Source: a virus
Reading direction: 5' to 3' (one strand)
IMG/VR virus record: IMGVR_UViG_3300042908_000769
Coordinates: 1-21,106 of that record
Length of the DNA stretch: 21,106 nucleotides
This document shows positions 1-10,276 of the stretch, one piece after another. The number at the start of each line of letters is the position of its first letter. The first letter of the stretch is position 1. Below the pieces are notes generated by a model. It was not told the DNA's origin, made no database searches, and saw only the letters and a program-made list of their open reading frames with translations. A program made the translations under genes and the position numbers.

Positions 1-355
1 GTGGCCGGTCGGTCGGCACGATCCGCCACTCCTCGGCCGTGATCACCAGCCGGGTCCGTTCCTCGCCGGTGTTGCGGTCGGTCCATCGGTCGGACTTCAC
101 ACGGCCGGAGACGTCGAGCAGCATGCCCTTCCTTGCCTGGTCAGCGAACGCGGCACCGGCCTGGCCCCATATCGTCACCTTGAACCAGTCCGGCTCCTGT
201 CCGTCGCCCTGCCGTTGGCCTGGGCGGTTGACGGCGATGTTCGCCTCAGCCACGCAGCTGCCCGACTCGAAGTAACGGACCTCAGGGTCACGGCCAAGGC
301 GGCCGATGAATCGATGCACGCTCGCGCGTAGCACGCTGTTGAACAGATCAGACAT
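1..355 (-). CDS. ssb: Single-stranded DNA-binding protein SSB (3' end cut by window edge)
   Basis: Reading leftwards from ATG at 355-353, 118 codons are visible before the window ends. The protein would coat single-stranded DNA during phage replication and recombination. The OB-fold signature is clear: a GRLGRDPEVRYFESGS stretch near residues 18-34, an IAVNR strand, then PDWFKVTIWG, RKGMLLDVSGRVK and DRWTDRNTGEER. This order and wording match, from memory, the SSB of Synechococcus/Prochlorococcus-type cyanobacteria more than the E. coli form. The start overlaps the recT stop by one base (TGATG), so the two are probably translationally coupled. The C-terminal tail lies outside the window, so the partner-binding acidic tip cannot be checked. 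Confidence 0.9.
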   Translation of the reverse strand, partial: MSDLFNSVLRASVHRFIGRLGRDPEVRYFESGSCVAEANIAVNRPGQRQGDGQEPDWFKVTIWGQAGAAFADQARKGMLLDVSGRVKSDRWTDRNTGEERTRLVITAEEWRIVPTDRP

Positions 356-1149
356 CAGAAGGGGTCAGCGGATGGGATGGACGGGGTGGATGGTTCGGTG
401 ACGATCTCAGCCTCAACGGCATCATCGATCACCTCGGGCTCAGGTTCAGGCGCCGGGGCGGCCCGACGGCGGCGGGGTGCTGCGGGCTCCGCAGGGGCCT
501 CAGCAGGGGCCTCGGCCGCGGCGGCGATCTGGCGGTTCAGGTCAGCGATCGTGTCGCCGGTGGTCTCCACCTCGCTCACCGCCGCCCGCTGAATCCGGGT
601 CTCCGCTTCCTCCCGCACGCCCAGGCCGAACAGCACTTCAGGCAGGTAGAGGTTGATCAGCCGGGTGGCCGCACGCCACCTGAGCATCTGCTCAGGGATG
701 CTGCGGTACTTCGGGTTGCGAGTCCAGCCATCGGCGGCAGCCTCCTTCATGGTGACCGTGGCGGTCACCTGCTCCTGTGTCTCCCACAAGGTCGCGGTGG
801 CGGTCACCTCCAACGTGTCTCCGGCCCCTTTGCTGGTCCAGGTGATGGGGCCGGCAAGCAGTCCAGAGCGGTTTGCGCGGCTGATCGCGTACCGGGCCGA
901 GGTGTTCGGCCGGCCGTTGATGATGCTCACCTCCTGGAACATCACCATCGGCGACTCGCCCAGCTGCTGCGAATACATGAGGGCAACCATGCAGCTCTCG
1001 GGCTTCGACTGGAAGTGAGCCGGCACCATGCCGCTACGGCTGAAGGCCTGGGCGACGCGCCAGAGGTGATCGAAGGCAGAGGAATCAGAGAGGAACGCCA
1101 GAGCACCTGGCGCTGCGGTCGCGGTCGTGATGGATGTGGATTCGGTCAT
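355..1149 (-). CDS. recT: RecT-family single-strand annealing protein
   Basis: A 264-residue protein that would bind single-stranded DNA and anneal complementary strands, working with the RecE-like exonuclease two genes upstream of the membrane-protein gene. The RecT core spans about residues 20-185: FQSKPESCMVALMYSQQLG, then VSIINGRPN, SARYAISRANRSG, and the basic stretch WTRNPKYRSIPEQMLRWRAATRLI. I chose ATG at 1149 because the upstream extension in frame runs through the preceding small gene, and because GGAG lies about eight bases before this ATG. The ATG also overlaps that gene's stop (ATGA). Residues 205-264 form an Ala/Pro/Glu-rich tail with an RRRR patch, ending acidic then ADPF. Family identity is solid; biochemical properties are inferred. 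Confidence 0.9.
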   Translation of the reverse strand: MTESTSITTATAAPGALAFLSDSSAFDHLWRVAQAFSRSGMVPAHFQSKPESCMVALMYSQQLGESPMVMFQEVSIINGRPNTSARYAISRANRSGLLAGPITWTSKGAGDTLEVTATATLWETQEQVTATVTMKEAAADGWTRNPKYRSIPEQMLRWRAATRLINLYLPEVLFGLGVREEAETRIQRAAVSEVETTGDTIADLNRQIAAAAEAPAEAPAEPAAPRRRRAAPAPEPEPEVIDDAVEAEIVTEPSTPSIPSADPF

Positions 1150-1361
1150 GGTGTGTCTCCGGGGATTGCCCGGGGTGGGGGGAACTGAGGTTTGGTCGGG
1201 GCCGCCGGCGGAGCATCCAGGTAGATCGCCTGCGGATCCCATGGGCCGGGTGCCACGGGCCTGGTCCTGCGGCGGCGGCGATGGATCCAGCTGGAGAGGA
1301 CGCCCGACAAGCTGATGCCGGTGGCCAGTCCTGACAGCCAGTGGGTGATGGGGTCAATCAC
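1146..1361 (-). CDS. Small one-helix membrane protein of unknown function
   Basis: A 71-residue ORF from GTG at 1361-1359. Its start overlaps the stop of the upstream gene (GTGA) and its stop overlaps the recT start (ATGA). Double coupling inside an operon is the main reason to believe it. Residues about 8-26 (HWLSGLATGISLSGVLSSW) could form one membrane helix, followed by HRRRRR, which by the positive-inside rule would place the Pro-rich C-terminal tail in the cytoplasm. I recognise no family. Its place between exonuclease and RecT suggests a role tied to recombination or membrane location of the complex, but that is only inferred. It could instead be a passenger gene. Confidence 0.6.
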   Translation of the reverse strand: MIDPITHWLSGLATGISLSGVLSSWIHRRRRRTRPVAPGPWDPQAIYLDAPPAAPTKPQFPPPRAIPGDTP

Positions 1362-1370
1362 GACACCACC
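1354..1370. repeat. 17-bp direct repeat, left copy
   Basis: The sequence TCAATCACGACACCACC is identical to positions 1809-1825. This copy holds the stop of the inserted gene and the GTG start of the membrane-protein gene. The two copies bracket the low-GC segment, and their starts are 455 bases apart. Confidence 0.85.
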
Positions 1371-1753
1371 AGGACAGGGCGGATCCTGTAGTAGCCGTTT
1401 CGCGCGCGCTCGAAAGGACTGTCTTTCCATGTAGCAGGCTGAACAGCATGGCCGACCTGATGATCAAAACGAGTAGTTGTGGACTTTCCGGTTTCGGCGT
1501 GCGGTTCCGTGTCCTTGGATCTCATGATAACTTTGCTGGCAAGAAAGAAACGCAGGAAGCTGACTGGAAACTCCCTGTCTTTCACTTGATCCCGAAGCTC
1601 TGGCAGGTGCTTCAAGACAAGATGCCGGATCTCGCGTGTGGTGTGATACTCCTTGCGTTGGATTGAACGTGAGTGTCTTGCGCTAAGTCGCGCAATCATT
1701 CGCCGATCAATAATCTGTTCAATAAATTCGATTTGCTCTGGAGTGAACGTCAT
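1358..1753 (-). CDS. Hypothetical protein on a low-GC insertion, possible winged-helix DNA-binding protein
   Basis: A 131-residue protein starting at ATG 1753-1751. An upstream in-frame ATG at 1816 would overlap the exonuclease end, and I judged it less likely. The gene lies in DNA of about 49% G+C (178 of 360 bases at 1441-1800 by hand count) against roughly 70% in the neighbours, so it looks acquired. Residues 1-20 look helical. The C-terminal part, TTRFDHQVGHAV then SPFERARNGYYRI (residues about 93-124), resembles the winged-helix of Mrr-N-like domains, where a Gly-x-Tyr-x-Ile/Leu strand ends the wing. This is a weak match from memory. The last codons are supplied by one copy of the flanking 17-bp repeat. 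No Shine-Dalgarno sequence is visible. Confidence 0.6.
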   Translation of the reverse strand: MTFTPEQIEFIEQIIDRRMIARLSARHSRSIQRKEYHTTREIRHLVLKHLPELRDQVKDREFPVSFLRFFLASKVIMRSKDTEPHAETGKSTTTRFDHQVGHAVQPATWKDSPFERARNGYYRIRPVLVVS

Positions 1754-1808
1754 CGGATTAGGTTGGAGAAAGGATTTTTGATACAGCAGTTGCCGCTGCG
1801 GCCGCTCC

Positions 1809-1825
1809 TCAATCACGACACCACC
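1809..1825. repeat. 17-bp direct repeat, right copy
   Basis: Identical to 1354-1370. This copy encodes the last residues (WCRD) and stop of the exonuclease. Removing one copy plus the segment between would join the exonuclease end directly to the GTG start of the membrane-protein gene with an 8-base overlap, a plausible ancestral arrangement. Confidence 0.85.
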
Positions 1826-2708
1826 CCGGCAGTTCGATCGGCTCCTGAATCAGATCGCCGTAGCCCGGCCAGCGATTCGTCCGGTGGCATTCGGCCAGCA
1901 GCTCCAAGGCTGCTGTGAACCGCCGTTCACCCGCGGCGATCATCGCCGGCGAGGCCGGATAGACCGCAACCGCGAACGGTCGGACGTTCTCAACCGCGAT
2001 CGACAGGAACTGCGCAGCACCCAGGGCCCGCAGGTTCCAGGCCGCCTGCAGGTGATAGTCGAACCCGGCGATGCTGCGGGCGAACTCAGACCGGCTGGCG
2101 TCCTTCGTGGTCTTCAGGTCCACCACCAGCAGGCCGTCCTCACCGTGCCAGTCGGGCCGGCACTTGCACGGCAGACCCGTGGCGGCATCGGTCCATGTGT
2201 AGCTGGCCTCGCGGCGGCCCTTGATGTCGAGCAGTGTCCGGGCTGCCGGGTGGCGGTGGACGGCATCAGCCATCCGGCGCACGCGGTCGGCATCATCAGG
2301 TGTCAGCACGATGCGGCCGGCGTTCTCCGCCTCGAACTCCTCGGCCAGCTGGCGGCCGATGTTCGTCCGGCGGTCGAACTGCTGCCGTGGGACCGCGACC
2401 GTGGAATCCCACAGGTCAGGTTCCAGGACGGCGGTGTGGAGTGCGGTGCCGACCTCCATCGCTGGTGTCGGCGGCTTGATCTCCCGATCAGGGGCCAGGT
2501 AGGCGTCGAAGTAGTGGGCAGCCGATCGGGCGAGCAGCTTCAGCCTGCTGGGGCTGTTCGCCGGCAGCTGGTGATACTGCTCGTTGGTCAGGCCCGGGTG
2601 ATAGGTCAGACCGTTCGGGCCGGTGGTGGTGACGTCGTAGCCGTTGGTGGCGAGCGCATCAGCTGCGGTCGGCGGCGGCTGCTCCAGCGTCAGAGCTGGT
2701 TGATCCAT
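1809..2708 (-). CDS. RecE-like PD-(D/E)XK exonuclease (DUF3799 type)
   Basis: A 299-residue protein, probably the 5'-3' exonuclease that resects DNA ends for RecT. The nuclease domain starts near residue 36 with a HPGLTNEQYHQL...SPSRLKLLARSAAHY segment typical of RecE/exonuclease VIII C-terminal domains. Likely catalytic residues are His91 (VGTALHTAV), Glu168, Asp186 (CRPDW), Asp197 and Lys199 (VVDLKTT), and Gln221 (YHLQAAW). Residues 1-35 are a variable, Pro/Ala/Thr-rich lead. It is the first gene of the leftward operon. The ATG follows a CACACCACCGCC leader rather than a Shine-Dalgarno sequence. Its end lies in a 17-bp repeat, so the C-terminal three or four residues may have been shaped by the insertion. 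Confidence 0.88.
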   Translation of the reverse strand: MDQPALTLEQPPPTAADALATNGYDVTTTGPNGLTYHPGLTNEQYHQLPANSPSRLKLLARSAAHYFDAYLAPDREIKPPTPAMEVGTALHTAVLEPDLWDSTVAVPRQQFDRRTNIGRQLAEEFEAENAGRIVLTPDDADRVRRMADAVHRHPAARTLLDIKGRREASYTWTDAATGLPCKCRPDWHGEDGLLVVDLKTTKDASRSEFARSIAGFDYHLQAAWNLRALGAAQFLSIAVENVRPFAVAVYPASPAMIAAGERRFTAALELLAECHRTNRWPGYGDLIQEPIELPGWCRD

Positions 2709-3125: not shown

Positions 3126-3171
3126 CATGCTCACCCGTAGCGTGTGACGTTATGTGAACTGGCCGGCCGGA

Positions 3172-3203
3172 TCAGACAACAGGGTAACGGTCTGCGCTAC
3201 TGT
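3172..3203 (+). promoter_or_regulatory. Rightward promoter P2 with GTAACGG motif
   Basis: TACTGT at 3198-3203 is a fair -10. GTAACGGTCTGCGCTAC at 3184-3200 matches the P1 motif at 16 of 17 positions. The -35 is poorer: GACAAC at 3175-3180 sits 17 bp upstream. An upstream CGTTATGTG (3148-3156) matches CGTTACGTG at P1 (2781-2789) but lies 16 bp further from the motif. It should drive the early operon from 3312 on. Confidence 0.55.
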
Positions 3204-3311: not shown

Positions 3312-3503
3312 ATGACCATCATCGACATCCAAGGCAAGAGCTACGAAGTGCACAGCGTCAAGCCTTACTTCCACGCCGCAGGCGCAACCGGCAACGCCGC
3401 TGATGTCCAGGGCGAATCCCTGATCGTGCGTCAAGTCCGCAGCAAGAAGTTTTGGCTTGTCAACCGCTACGAAAACGGCACCTACTCCAAGCTGATCGCC
3501 TGA
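3312..3503 (+). CDS. Small hypothetical early protein (63 aa)
   Basis: Starts at ATG 3312 after a run of CACCACACCACCGCACCACC-type leader. It begins MTIIDIQGKSYEVHSVKPYF and ends VRSKKFWLVNRYENGTYSKL then IA. The pattern suggests a small beta-rich fold with a basic, aromatic C-terminal half. I recognise no family. It is the first gene after promoter P2 and its leader hairpins, so it should be among the first expressed. The much longer frame upstream of this ATG would run through the promoter and hairpins, so I rejected it. Confidence 0.65.
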   Translation: MTIIDIQGKSYEVHSVKPYFHAAGATGNAADVQGESLIVRQVRSKKFWLVNRYENGTYSKLIA

Positions 3504-3562
3504 CCCCCCACGGCCCGCCGGGCGCCGCAAGCCCGGCAACCCATCCAATCGCACTGCCAACC

Positions 3563-3757
3563 ATGTCCGTCTCCATCGTCATTCAGCACCGTGAAAACCA
3601 CCCGCATAACCCAGGCTGGTGGCGCTTCAGCCGACCCCGCCACGAGGTGCATGATGCCGCGCCGAGGATCAGGGAGGAAACCCGCTGGTCCTACGGCACC
3701 CCAGCCGATGCGGCCAGGATGGCGGCCGAATGGGACGCGGCGAACCCCAGAGGTTGA
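3563..3757 (+). CDS. Small hypothetical early protein (64 aa)
   Basis: Starts at ATG 3563, 59 bases after the previous stop, again after an A/C-rich stretch (CACTGCCAACC) with no Shine-Dalgarno. It is rich in His, Arg and Trp (IQHREN, NPGWWRFSRPRHEV) with an Ala-rich helical C-terminus (ADAARMAAEWDAANPRG). It is cytoplasmic, with no membrane segment. Function is unknown. Its place in the early operon suggests a role in host takeover or DNA metabolism, but this is inference from position only. Confidence 0.6.
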   Translation: MSVSIVIQHRENHPHNPGWWRFSRPRHEVHDAAPRIREETRWSYGTPADAARMAAEWDAANPRG

Positions 3758-3768
3758 CTCCTGATCGC

Positions 3769-3951
3769 ATGACCGTCCCCACCATTGACGACCTGATGGC
3801 CCAGACCGCCATCGGCAATGGTCTGCACAGCTGGAGCGTCGAAGGCGGCGCCATCACGGTTGACGCCGATCAGCTGCGGAGGGCCCTGGAGCTGGCCTAC
3901 GACCCGACCATGCCCAACTGGCCCGCCATGGTCGAAATCGAAGATGCCTGA
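3769..3951 (+). CDS. Small hypothetical early protein (60 aa)
   Basis: From ATG 3769, 11 bases after the previous stop. Acidic; it reads MTVPTIDDLMAQTAIG at the start and ends in DPTMPNWPAMVEIEDA. The middle has VEGGAITVDADQLRRALEL, which suggests a strand-turn-helix arrangement. No recognised family. An in-frame ATG at 3730 would overlap the previous gene by 28 bases, so I preferred 3769. The 3' end overlaps the next gene by eight bases, which supports it being translated. Confidence 0.6.
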   Translation: MTVPTIDDLMAQTAIGNGLHSWSVEGGAITVDADQLRRALELAYDPTMPNWPAMVEIEDA

Positions 3952-9170: not shown

Positions 9171-9353
9171 ATGGAGCTCACCCTGTCGCAGCAGCTGGAC
9201 CTCGAACGCCTTCACCGATCCCTAGACCGCGCATCACCTGAGCAGCTGCTCGACATGGCCCACCGGCTCGCGGATGCATGGATGGCGCAGCAAGCCGCCG
9301 CACGCTGGGCGATCAAGCAGGGCCTACCAGGCTCCCGACTGCGGGGCCACTGA
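9171..9353 (+). CDS. NblA-like phycobilisome degradation protein
   Basis: A 60-residue helical protein. NblA binds phycobilisomes and delivers them to the Clp protease in starved cyanobacteria; some cyanophages carry it. From memory of Synechococcus elongatus NblA, residues 3-51 align without gaps. Shared anchors are L-x-L/V-x-QQ-x-DL at the start, Ser then Glu at the second-helix start (ASPEQLLD), Met-Ala in the middle (WMAQ), and I-K/R-Q-G at the end. Length and two-helix layout also fit. It starts at ATG 9171 with no Shine-Dalgarno. Its stop overlaps the next gene (TGATG), an unusual setting for a metabolic gene. It could instead be an unrelated small helical protein, as the match is recalled rather than searched. 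Confidence 0.55.
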   Translation: MELTLSQQLDLERLHRSLDRASPEQLLDMAHRLADAWMAQQAAARWAIKQGLPGSRLRGH

Positions 9354-10276
9354 TGAGCGACATCACCACCGACCCGATCGCTACAGCCGGCCGGTGGTTC
9401 ACCCAATCCGGCGACCGCCTCCACCTGGTCGGCTCCCACAGCTGGAACGGCGTTCAGTCGATCGGGGGCGCCACGCTCGACCCCGGCAGCCTCCACGGCA
9501 ACCTCACCGCTGCCTGGCTGTTCGAGGCCCCCACCTGGAACACCACCGGCAGCCGGTACGCACAGGGCCGCGGCCGGCCCCTCAACGTCGCCCCCATGCC
9601 CTGGCTGGCCCGTCAGGGCGCCTACGACCTATCACGCCCCCACAGGGGGCTCTACGGCCGCCTGCGGGCTTTCGTGGCCCGTCAGGCGGCACAGGGCCGC
9701 GCCACGGTCGTGATCGGCTTCGAGGGCACGCAGCCGGCCTATGGCGATTCGTGGGCGACCCATCCCCTCCGCCCCGGGAAGAACCACCAGGGCATCCACC
9801 TGGACCGACCGCAGCAGGTCCACGCTCCCGGCCACCACAACCGCTACCAGCGCCAACACCTCGCCCGCGTGATCCGCGCTATCGCCGGACTGCCCGCCCT
9901 GCTGCAGATCGGCAACGAGCTCCCGGCCTCCAGCTGGCCATGGCAGCGCCGCATGGTTGCATTCGCTGAACGCCTGACCGACATTCCCGTAGGCGTGAGC
10001 CACACGCCCAACACATCCGACCGCTGGATGCTGTCTTCCGGCGCCGATTGGTACGGCCCTGGCTGGCACACAGGCCCGATCGCTGGCGCCAGGGTGCCCC
10101 AGCTGCTCGACACCGATCACGGCATCGCACTGCGGGCACCCGACCTCGACACCATCACTGGCCTGCACCGTGCCGGGCATGCCATCCTGCTGATGGACGG
10201 TCTGAACGGTCGCGTGCTGCCCAACATCGACAACCTCGCCCCCGCCCGTGATCACATATCAGGGCTGATCCGATGA
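9353..10276 (+). CDS. Glycoside-hydrolase-like TIM barrel protein
   Basis: A 307-residue protein resembling a bacterial family of putative clan GH-A hydrolases. The first strand is LHLVGSHSWNG (residues 23-33). The acid/base pair of clan GH-A appears as QIGNELP (Asn188, Glu189). A later strand has LLDTDHGIA (Asp253-His256), and the barrel ends with HAILLMDGL. I recall the DTDH motif as usual for this family, so its Asp should not be read as a lost Glu. There is no signal peptide. ATG 9353 overlaps the previous stop and its own stop overlaps the next start (ATGA). It may degrade surface polysaccharide as a virion part or lysis factor. The substrate cannot be told. Confidence 0.65.
   Translation: MSDITTDPIATAGRWFTQSGDRLHLVGSHSWNGVQSIGGATLDPGSLHGNLTAAWLFEAPTWNTTGSRYAQGRGRPLNVAPMPWLARQGAYDLSRPHRGLYGRLRAFVARQAAQGRATVVIGFEGTQPAYGDSWATHPLRPGKNHQGIHLDRPQQVHAPGHHNRYQRQHLARVIRAIAGLPALLQIGNELPASSWPWQRRMVAFAERLTDIPVGVSHTPNTSDRWMLSSGADWYGPGWHTGPIAGARVPQLLDTDHGIALRAPDLDTITGLHRAGHAILLMDGLNGRVLPNIDNLAPARDHISGLIR

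Follow-up and report, generated by a model that had tools for sequence, protein, structure and literature searches.

How does a phage gain a gene inside an operon whose reading frames overlap, and keep the genes on both sides intact? We addressed this question for a 21,106 nt stretch of viral DNA (IMG/VR virus record IMGVR_UViG_3300042908_000769, positions 1 to 21,106; referred to here as the window, 21 kb), in which a small gene, P1, lies between an exonuclease gene and a second small gene, P2, and is bracketed by a 17-bp direct repeat. Comparison with related contigs (labelled L002, L003 and so on) suggests that P1 was probably added ahead of the resident P2 in a variable slot, that the 17-bp repeat is the scar of one crossover between related phages, and that the resulting block then spread by homologous recombination. 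The features of the operon, with protein lengths in amino acids (aa), are as follows:

1809 to 2708, minus strand: exonuclease VIII / RecE-like nuclease (PF12684 DUF3799, PD-(D/E)XK), 299 aa, C-terminus LPGWCRD
1809 to 1825, minus strand: repeat copy 1, the native exonuclease 3' end GGTGGTGTCGTGATTGA, which includes the GTG start of the next gene
1371 to 1808, minus strand: unique insert of 438 bp, absent from L003/L004 and identical in L002
1358 to 1816, minus strand: inserted gene P1, 152 aa from GTG 1816 (or 131 aa from ATG 1753), with homologues in L008 and L057, and with fold models
1354 to 1370, minus strand: repeat copy 2, the duplicated exonuclease 3' end, which supplies the P1 stop and the P2 GTG start
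1146 to 1361, minus strand: small resident gene P2, 71 aa, with homologues in L050, L058, L061 and L075
355 to 1149, minus strand: RecT-like single-strand annealing protein, 264 aa (phrog_561, PF03837)
1 to 355, minus strand: single-stranded-DNA-binding (SSB)-type protein, start only, named from resemblance in sequence and synteny; the gene leaves the window

The direct repeat and the inserted DNA

The perfect repeat, TCAATCACGACACCACC, occurs at 1354–1370 and 1809–1825 with a spacing of 455 bp, exactly where an earlier note on this DNA, made from the sequence alone, had placed it. Within 1 kb there is no other 17-bp direct repeat in the window, and the longest comparable direct repeat in 200 order-1 Markov simulated sequences was 15 bp. 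A longer repeat of 24 bp (21 matches) was dropped, because the extra 7 bp match at 4/7 positions, which is not above chance. The exonuclease stop (1811–1809, minus strand) is overlapped by a GTG at 1816–1814, creating an 8-nt overlap (1809–1816), and the same octamer, GTGATTGA, recurs at 1361–1354 as the start of P2. This agrees with the claim in the earlier note that excising the insert together with one repeat copy would leave a clean 8-base overlap. The bases shared between stop and start are GTGATTGA for exonuclease and P1, GTGA (1358–1361) for P1 and P2, and ATGA for P2 and RecT.

At the far end of the insert, the exonuclease 3' end is copied at 17/17 positions. In L083 and L099, the same 17-mer natively ends the exonuclease gene and is followed by an unrelated gene, and copy 2 is therefore best read as an exonuclease tail left ahead of P2. 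When the exact 17-mer was sought in viral contigs, it was doubled in the L002 contig only. The likeness of P1 to its homologues stops at about ..YYRIRP, just before copy 2; the final residues, VLVVS, come from the repeat or the bases next to it, and copy 2 provides the last codons and the stop.

The insert (1371–1808) has a guanine plus cytosine (G+C) content of 51.4%, as compared with ~67% in the flanks; the contrast noted earlier is real, although the figures given for it (~49% and ~70%) were not accurate. The insert falls in the lowest-G+C stretch of its length in the window (mean 66.0%, standard deviation 3.5), and G+C at third codon positions is 55% in P1 versus 76–84% in the exonuclease, RecT, P2, helicase, primase, terminase and portal genes.

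The insert and both repeat copies are also present in L002 (contig IMGVR 3300044608_002074), which differs from the window upstream, indicating that an assembly artefact is unlikely. There are zero differences between the window and L002 over positions 1–2072, insert included, as compared with a 4.8% difference across the whole exonuclease and 16% just upstream of it. At 2072–2073, inside the exonuclease gene, identity with L002 drops sharply from 100% to a clearly lower level. Because identity breaks off upstream of 2072, a recent recombination breakpoint between the two genomes probably lies inside the exonuclease gene.

A variable slot between exonuclease and RecT

We compared exonuclease–RecT junctions in 36 contigs, window included; note that these contigs are related, and are not 36 independent tests. 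The RecT start, ATGACTGA, lies inside the exonuclease stop in 7 of the 36 junctions, and the remaining junctions contain various small genes or a short leader. Thus, the slot is empty or is filled by one small gene or two, drawn from several unrelated types. Occupants that start in the overlap include P1, P2, an L003 type, a GRWLT type, a hydrophobic peptide of 24 residues with a second gene behind it, and further types; two slot genes are stacked in L075. Homologues of P2 begin in the exonuclease overlap, with a similar octamer start, in L050, L058, L061 and L075. L056 has an unrelated 169-aa slot gene (L056:144–653; 55% G+C) that starts at an ATG of its own beyond the exonuclease stop, and the C-terminal half of its product resembles a helix-turn-helix, judged by eye.

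A start codon is present within the last 8 nt of the exonuclease gene in 27 of the 36 junctions, and an open reading frame (ORF) or RecT begins there in every case (27/27). In the 9 junctions that lack this start codon (e.g. through a change of CGT to CGG, both arginine), no gene begins there. Based on this association, the true start of P1 is probably the overlap GTG at 1816, predicting a protein of 152 rather than 131 aa; the shorter reading from ATG 1753 described in the earlier note does exist, but the comparative evidence favours the longer one. For every gene that starts in the overlap, the octamer is of the type RTGAYTGA. It is conceivable, though we think it rather doubtful, that this overlap would serve as a conserved docking point for accessory genes across this group of cyanosiphoviruses, with entrants borrowing the start codon and modulating the adjoining recombinase, and with an empty slot losing the start codon, in several lineages via the arginine-keeping CGT to CGG change.

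P1 homologues are the only slot genes in L008 and L057, where they overlap the exonuclease stop with no 17-bp copy. They have 39% aa identity to P1 of the window and 45% to each other, and substitutions between members of the family are most frequent at third codon positions and least frequent at second positions, which fits a real protein gene. The G+C content of P1 is also low in these relatives (55.6% in L008, 50.9% in L057); hence, low G+C is a property of the P1 family and is weak evidence for recency. In an exonuclease tree, L008 is nested within L006/L007/L012, which have no slot gene (support 96/87; DNA ~90% identical), and starred branches of the tree mark at least two changes that are forced for the P1 label. 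These comparisons suggest that P1 entered the slot at least twice, and that it is a slot gene that has been exchanged again and again rather than a single acquisition or a long-fixed member of the operon. The earlier note had described a recent gene gain that duplicated 17 bp and left the neighbours intact. A gain in this lineage, the duplication and the intact neighbours all agree with our data, but the gene cannot be called new in these phages, since its family occupies the slot in L008 and L057. Searches with P1 gave no match in genome contigs or plasmids and nothing credible in phage records, and scans of viral contigs with each P1 homologue returned only contigs already found. Cutibacterium phages gave a tblastn match to P1 (E ~1, at an exonuclease), but this was dropped because it runs across a gene boundary, from the end of one gene into the next.

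The distribution of the family bears on a different history, in which exonuclease–P1–P2–RecT is the ancestral order, relatives have lost P1, P2 or both, and the repeat is a conserved translational-coupling element. According to the earlier note, finding the gene at the same place in distant relatives, without the repeat or the G+C contrast, would mark it as an old operon member; L008 and L057, whose exonuclease DNA is 70–73% identical to that of the window, do carry the gene in this slot and lack the repeat, yet the G+C of the gene is still low. An ancestral order would fit the presence of P1 in the same slot in three branches, two of them without the repeat, with low G+C everywhere, and would fit the RTGAYTGA-type octamer shared by genes that start in the overlap. 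However, the window lineage is the only one with both P1 and P2, P1 being alone in the slot elsewhere; P1 of L008 is nested among slotless relatives with 90% identical DNA; and the repeat exceeds the shared octamer by 9 nt and is an exact copy of the exonuclease tail, neither of which is needed for coupling. We therefore consider this history improbable.

Origin of the P1–P2 arrangement

Two close relatives, L003 and L004, are ~95–96% identical to the window on both sides of the slot. Their slot contains a different gene of 70 aa (gene B), and lacks both P1 and P2. Thus, relatives without the 455-bp unit, which the earlier note had proposed to look for, do exist, but the extra gene is not the only difference at the junction. 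The empty site predicted by that note, with the exonuclease joined directly to P2, was not found in close relatives, and is seen only in L050, with a distant P2 homologue.

We propose that the slot is located at the exonuclease stop codon, which would overlap the start codon of whichever gene comes next, and that P1 is one among several small accessory families gained and lost there. P1 would have been placed before the resident P2, in this lineage or in its donor. We infer that this may have occurred by a single illegitimate crossover during co-infection, in which the 3' end of P1 from an exonuclease–P1 genome was joined to the 3' end of the exonuclease gene from an exonuclease–P2 genome; one such crossover would be the most economical route. 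The crossover would leave a copied 17 bp of exonuclease tail separating P1 from P2, such that P1 would lose its own stop and gain a new one from the copy, and P2 would keep its old start. All four genes would retain overlapping stops and starts, and translational coupling would presumably be kept. The block would later have spread by ordinary homologous recombination in its flanks, consistent with the window matching L002 over 1–2072 but diverging upstream. RecT-type recombinases of phages act on homologous sequences that are short and diverged (PMC3945230). In the other slots, any copy of the exonuclease tail is 13 nt or shorter, suggesting that the 17-bp repeat is the scar of one event and not the product of a general insertion mechanism.

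Several observations weigh against this proposal. The duplication event would be inferred from a single lineage. Within the close clade, we found neither an exonuclease–P1 arrangement without P2 nor an exonuclease–P2 arrangement without P1, and hence neither putative parent. Identity upstream of the 17 bp is at chance level (4/7) and does not place the crossover joint, and 17 bp is shorter than the 23–27 bp quoted as the efficient pairing length for Red-beta. Lastly, the RecT–SSB junction, examined as a control, is variable as well; a claim that the exonuclease–RecT slot is uniquely hot was dropped for this reason, and this slot is one of several variable slots.

The duplication may have occurred in this lineage or in a donor; L003 and L004 cannot place it, because both lack P1 and P2. 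A variant that overlaps with our proposal is that a preformed P1–17bp–P2 block from another phage lineage replaced gene B by homologous exchange in the exonuclease and RecT genes. The high identity of L003 and L004 to the window on both sides of a slot that holds gene B is consistent with such a replacement, and the identical stretch shared by the window and L002 shows that block exchange of this kind happens; no donor was found, however, and we regard this variant as possible but less likely than not.

A perfect direct repeat around a compositionally different unit could also reflect insertion of a mobile element, or a homing-type event, with a 17-bp target-site duplication. P1 has no match to a transposase, integrase, homing nuclease or other family in Pfam, PHROGs, NCBIfam or PADLOC, the insert ends have no inverted repeat, and P1 of L008 and L057 is not associated with any such duplication. 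Moreover, the duplication sits exactly on the start/stop overlap, which stays open. This explanation is already largely refuted, and we consider it very improbable. We favour stacking of P1 ahead of P2 by one illegitimate crossover.

Predicted product, neighbouring genes and known counterparts

AlphaFold (AF2) models of two P1 family members have the same order of helices and strands, with pLDDT values of 69 and 63. Structural neighbours identified by VIA-align are mostly winged-helix domains, with Z scores of 5–6.8 that are below the diagnostic level, and Foldseek and fold libraries gave no P1 match at E<0.001. A winged helix in P1, raised as a possibility in the earlier note, is thus plausible from low-confidence models but suggestive only, with no significant fold match. 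Profile searches of the inserted protein, also proposed in that note, gave no convincing family match in Pfam, PHROGs, NCBIfam or PADLOC. A match to phrog_14063 (head scaffolding; E 0.003) was set aside because it covers the N-terminal helical stretch of one member only. An Rfam search of the region gave no match.

On this weak basis, P1 is most likely a small winged-helix DNA-binding protein with an accessory or regulatory role, made together with the recombinase; that this functional assignment relies on low-confidence models also counts against our overall interpretation. A serious alternative for function only, although one we lean against, is that P1 counters host defences or helps to take over the host. 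Small genes that lie beside recombinases and are patchily distributed and exchangeable can act against the host, as lambda gam next to bet illustrates; against this, P1 matches no PADLOC defence-system protein model, and its winged-helix-like model suggests binding to DNA or nucleoprotein.

The exonuclease matches phrog_412 (exonuclease VIII; E 1.5e-82) and PF12684 (E 4.9e-28), and the RecT-like protein matches phrog_561 (E 5.7e-52) and PF03837 (RecT; E 1.3e-4, just under the Pfam cut-off); an exonuclease adjoined by a RecT-family annealing protein corresponds to a RecE/RecT-type two-gene recombinase. Homologues of the SSB-type gene stand after RecT in relatives. The P2 product has an N-terminal hydrophobic stretch, an RRRRR motif and a tail rich in proline.

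Upstream of the exonuclease is a divergent control region with three copies of the dyad GTARCG-N5-CGYTAY, at 2801–2817, 3137–3153 and 3184–3200. Allowing one mismatch, there are six matches on both strands versus 0.22 expected by chance, and the dyads are present in L003 and L004 too; they may act as operators or promoters for the early region. Further upstream, ~620 bp of small ORFs (3319–3942), unmatched in L002, L003 and L004, make up another variable block, which separates the control region from the helicase gene. Elsewhere, a 332-aa ORF (9278–10276) that immediately precedes a minor-tail-type gene and the terminase genes had no match in Pfam, PHROG or phage records.

Judged by sequence similarity, the virus is a Synechococcus-type (cyanobacterial) siphovirus of the same kind as S-CBS1, S-CBS3, KBS-S-2A and S-H1. 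The terminase large subunit is 83.5–85% identical to those of the Synechococcus siphoviruses S-CBS1 and S-CBS3, and the exonuclease is 42–44% identical to those of S-CBS1, KBS-S-2A and S-H1. Unlike in the window, there is no small gene between in S-CBS1 and KBS-S-2A, where the annotated gene of ~220 codons that follows the exonuclease directly overlaps it.

Like lambda exo-bet-gam and rac recE-recT, the operon combines an exonuclease, a single-strand annealing protein and small accessory genes. Unlike in those operons, the exonuclease is of the DUF3799/exonuclease VIII type, and P1 has no match among the PHROGs of known accessory proteins (e.g. Gam). P1 resembles phage morons in being small, patchy and located between intact core genes, with a base composition unlike that of its neighbours. 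Classical morons have their own promoter and terminator. Consensus scans of the insert found no sigma-70-like promoter, and one weak terminator-like site inside P1, a count near chance; P1, unlike classical morons, seems to depend on read-through from the operon and on translational coupling. A close parallel in arrangement is gene 68 of mycobacteriophage Island3, an extra small gene of unknown function with no counterpart in Brujita, whose 3' end duplicates that of the upstream gene, and for which recombination through the repeated sequence was proposed (PMC3029335). P1 is likewise an extra small gene with the 3' end of the upstream gene repeated at its end, but here the copy is 17 bp long, lies in another frame and doubles as a stop/start overlap, and the gene and host are unrelated to those of Island3.

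The locus is a tidy new case of a known process, ordinary gene shuffling between related phages, and it leaves the general picture of phage mosaicism unchanged. It gives a base-pair view of gene stacking in a tightly overlapping operon, with the reading frames of both neighbours unbroken, and the stacked gene sits within the operon that encodes the recombinase of the phage itself. A further outcome is an uncharacterised family of small proteins tied to exonuclease–RecT operons, whose members are candidates for recombinase cofactors.
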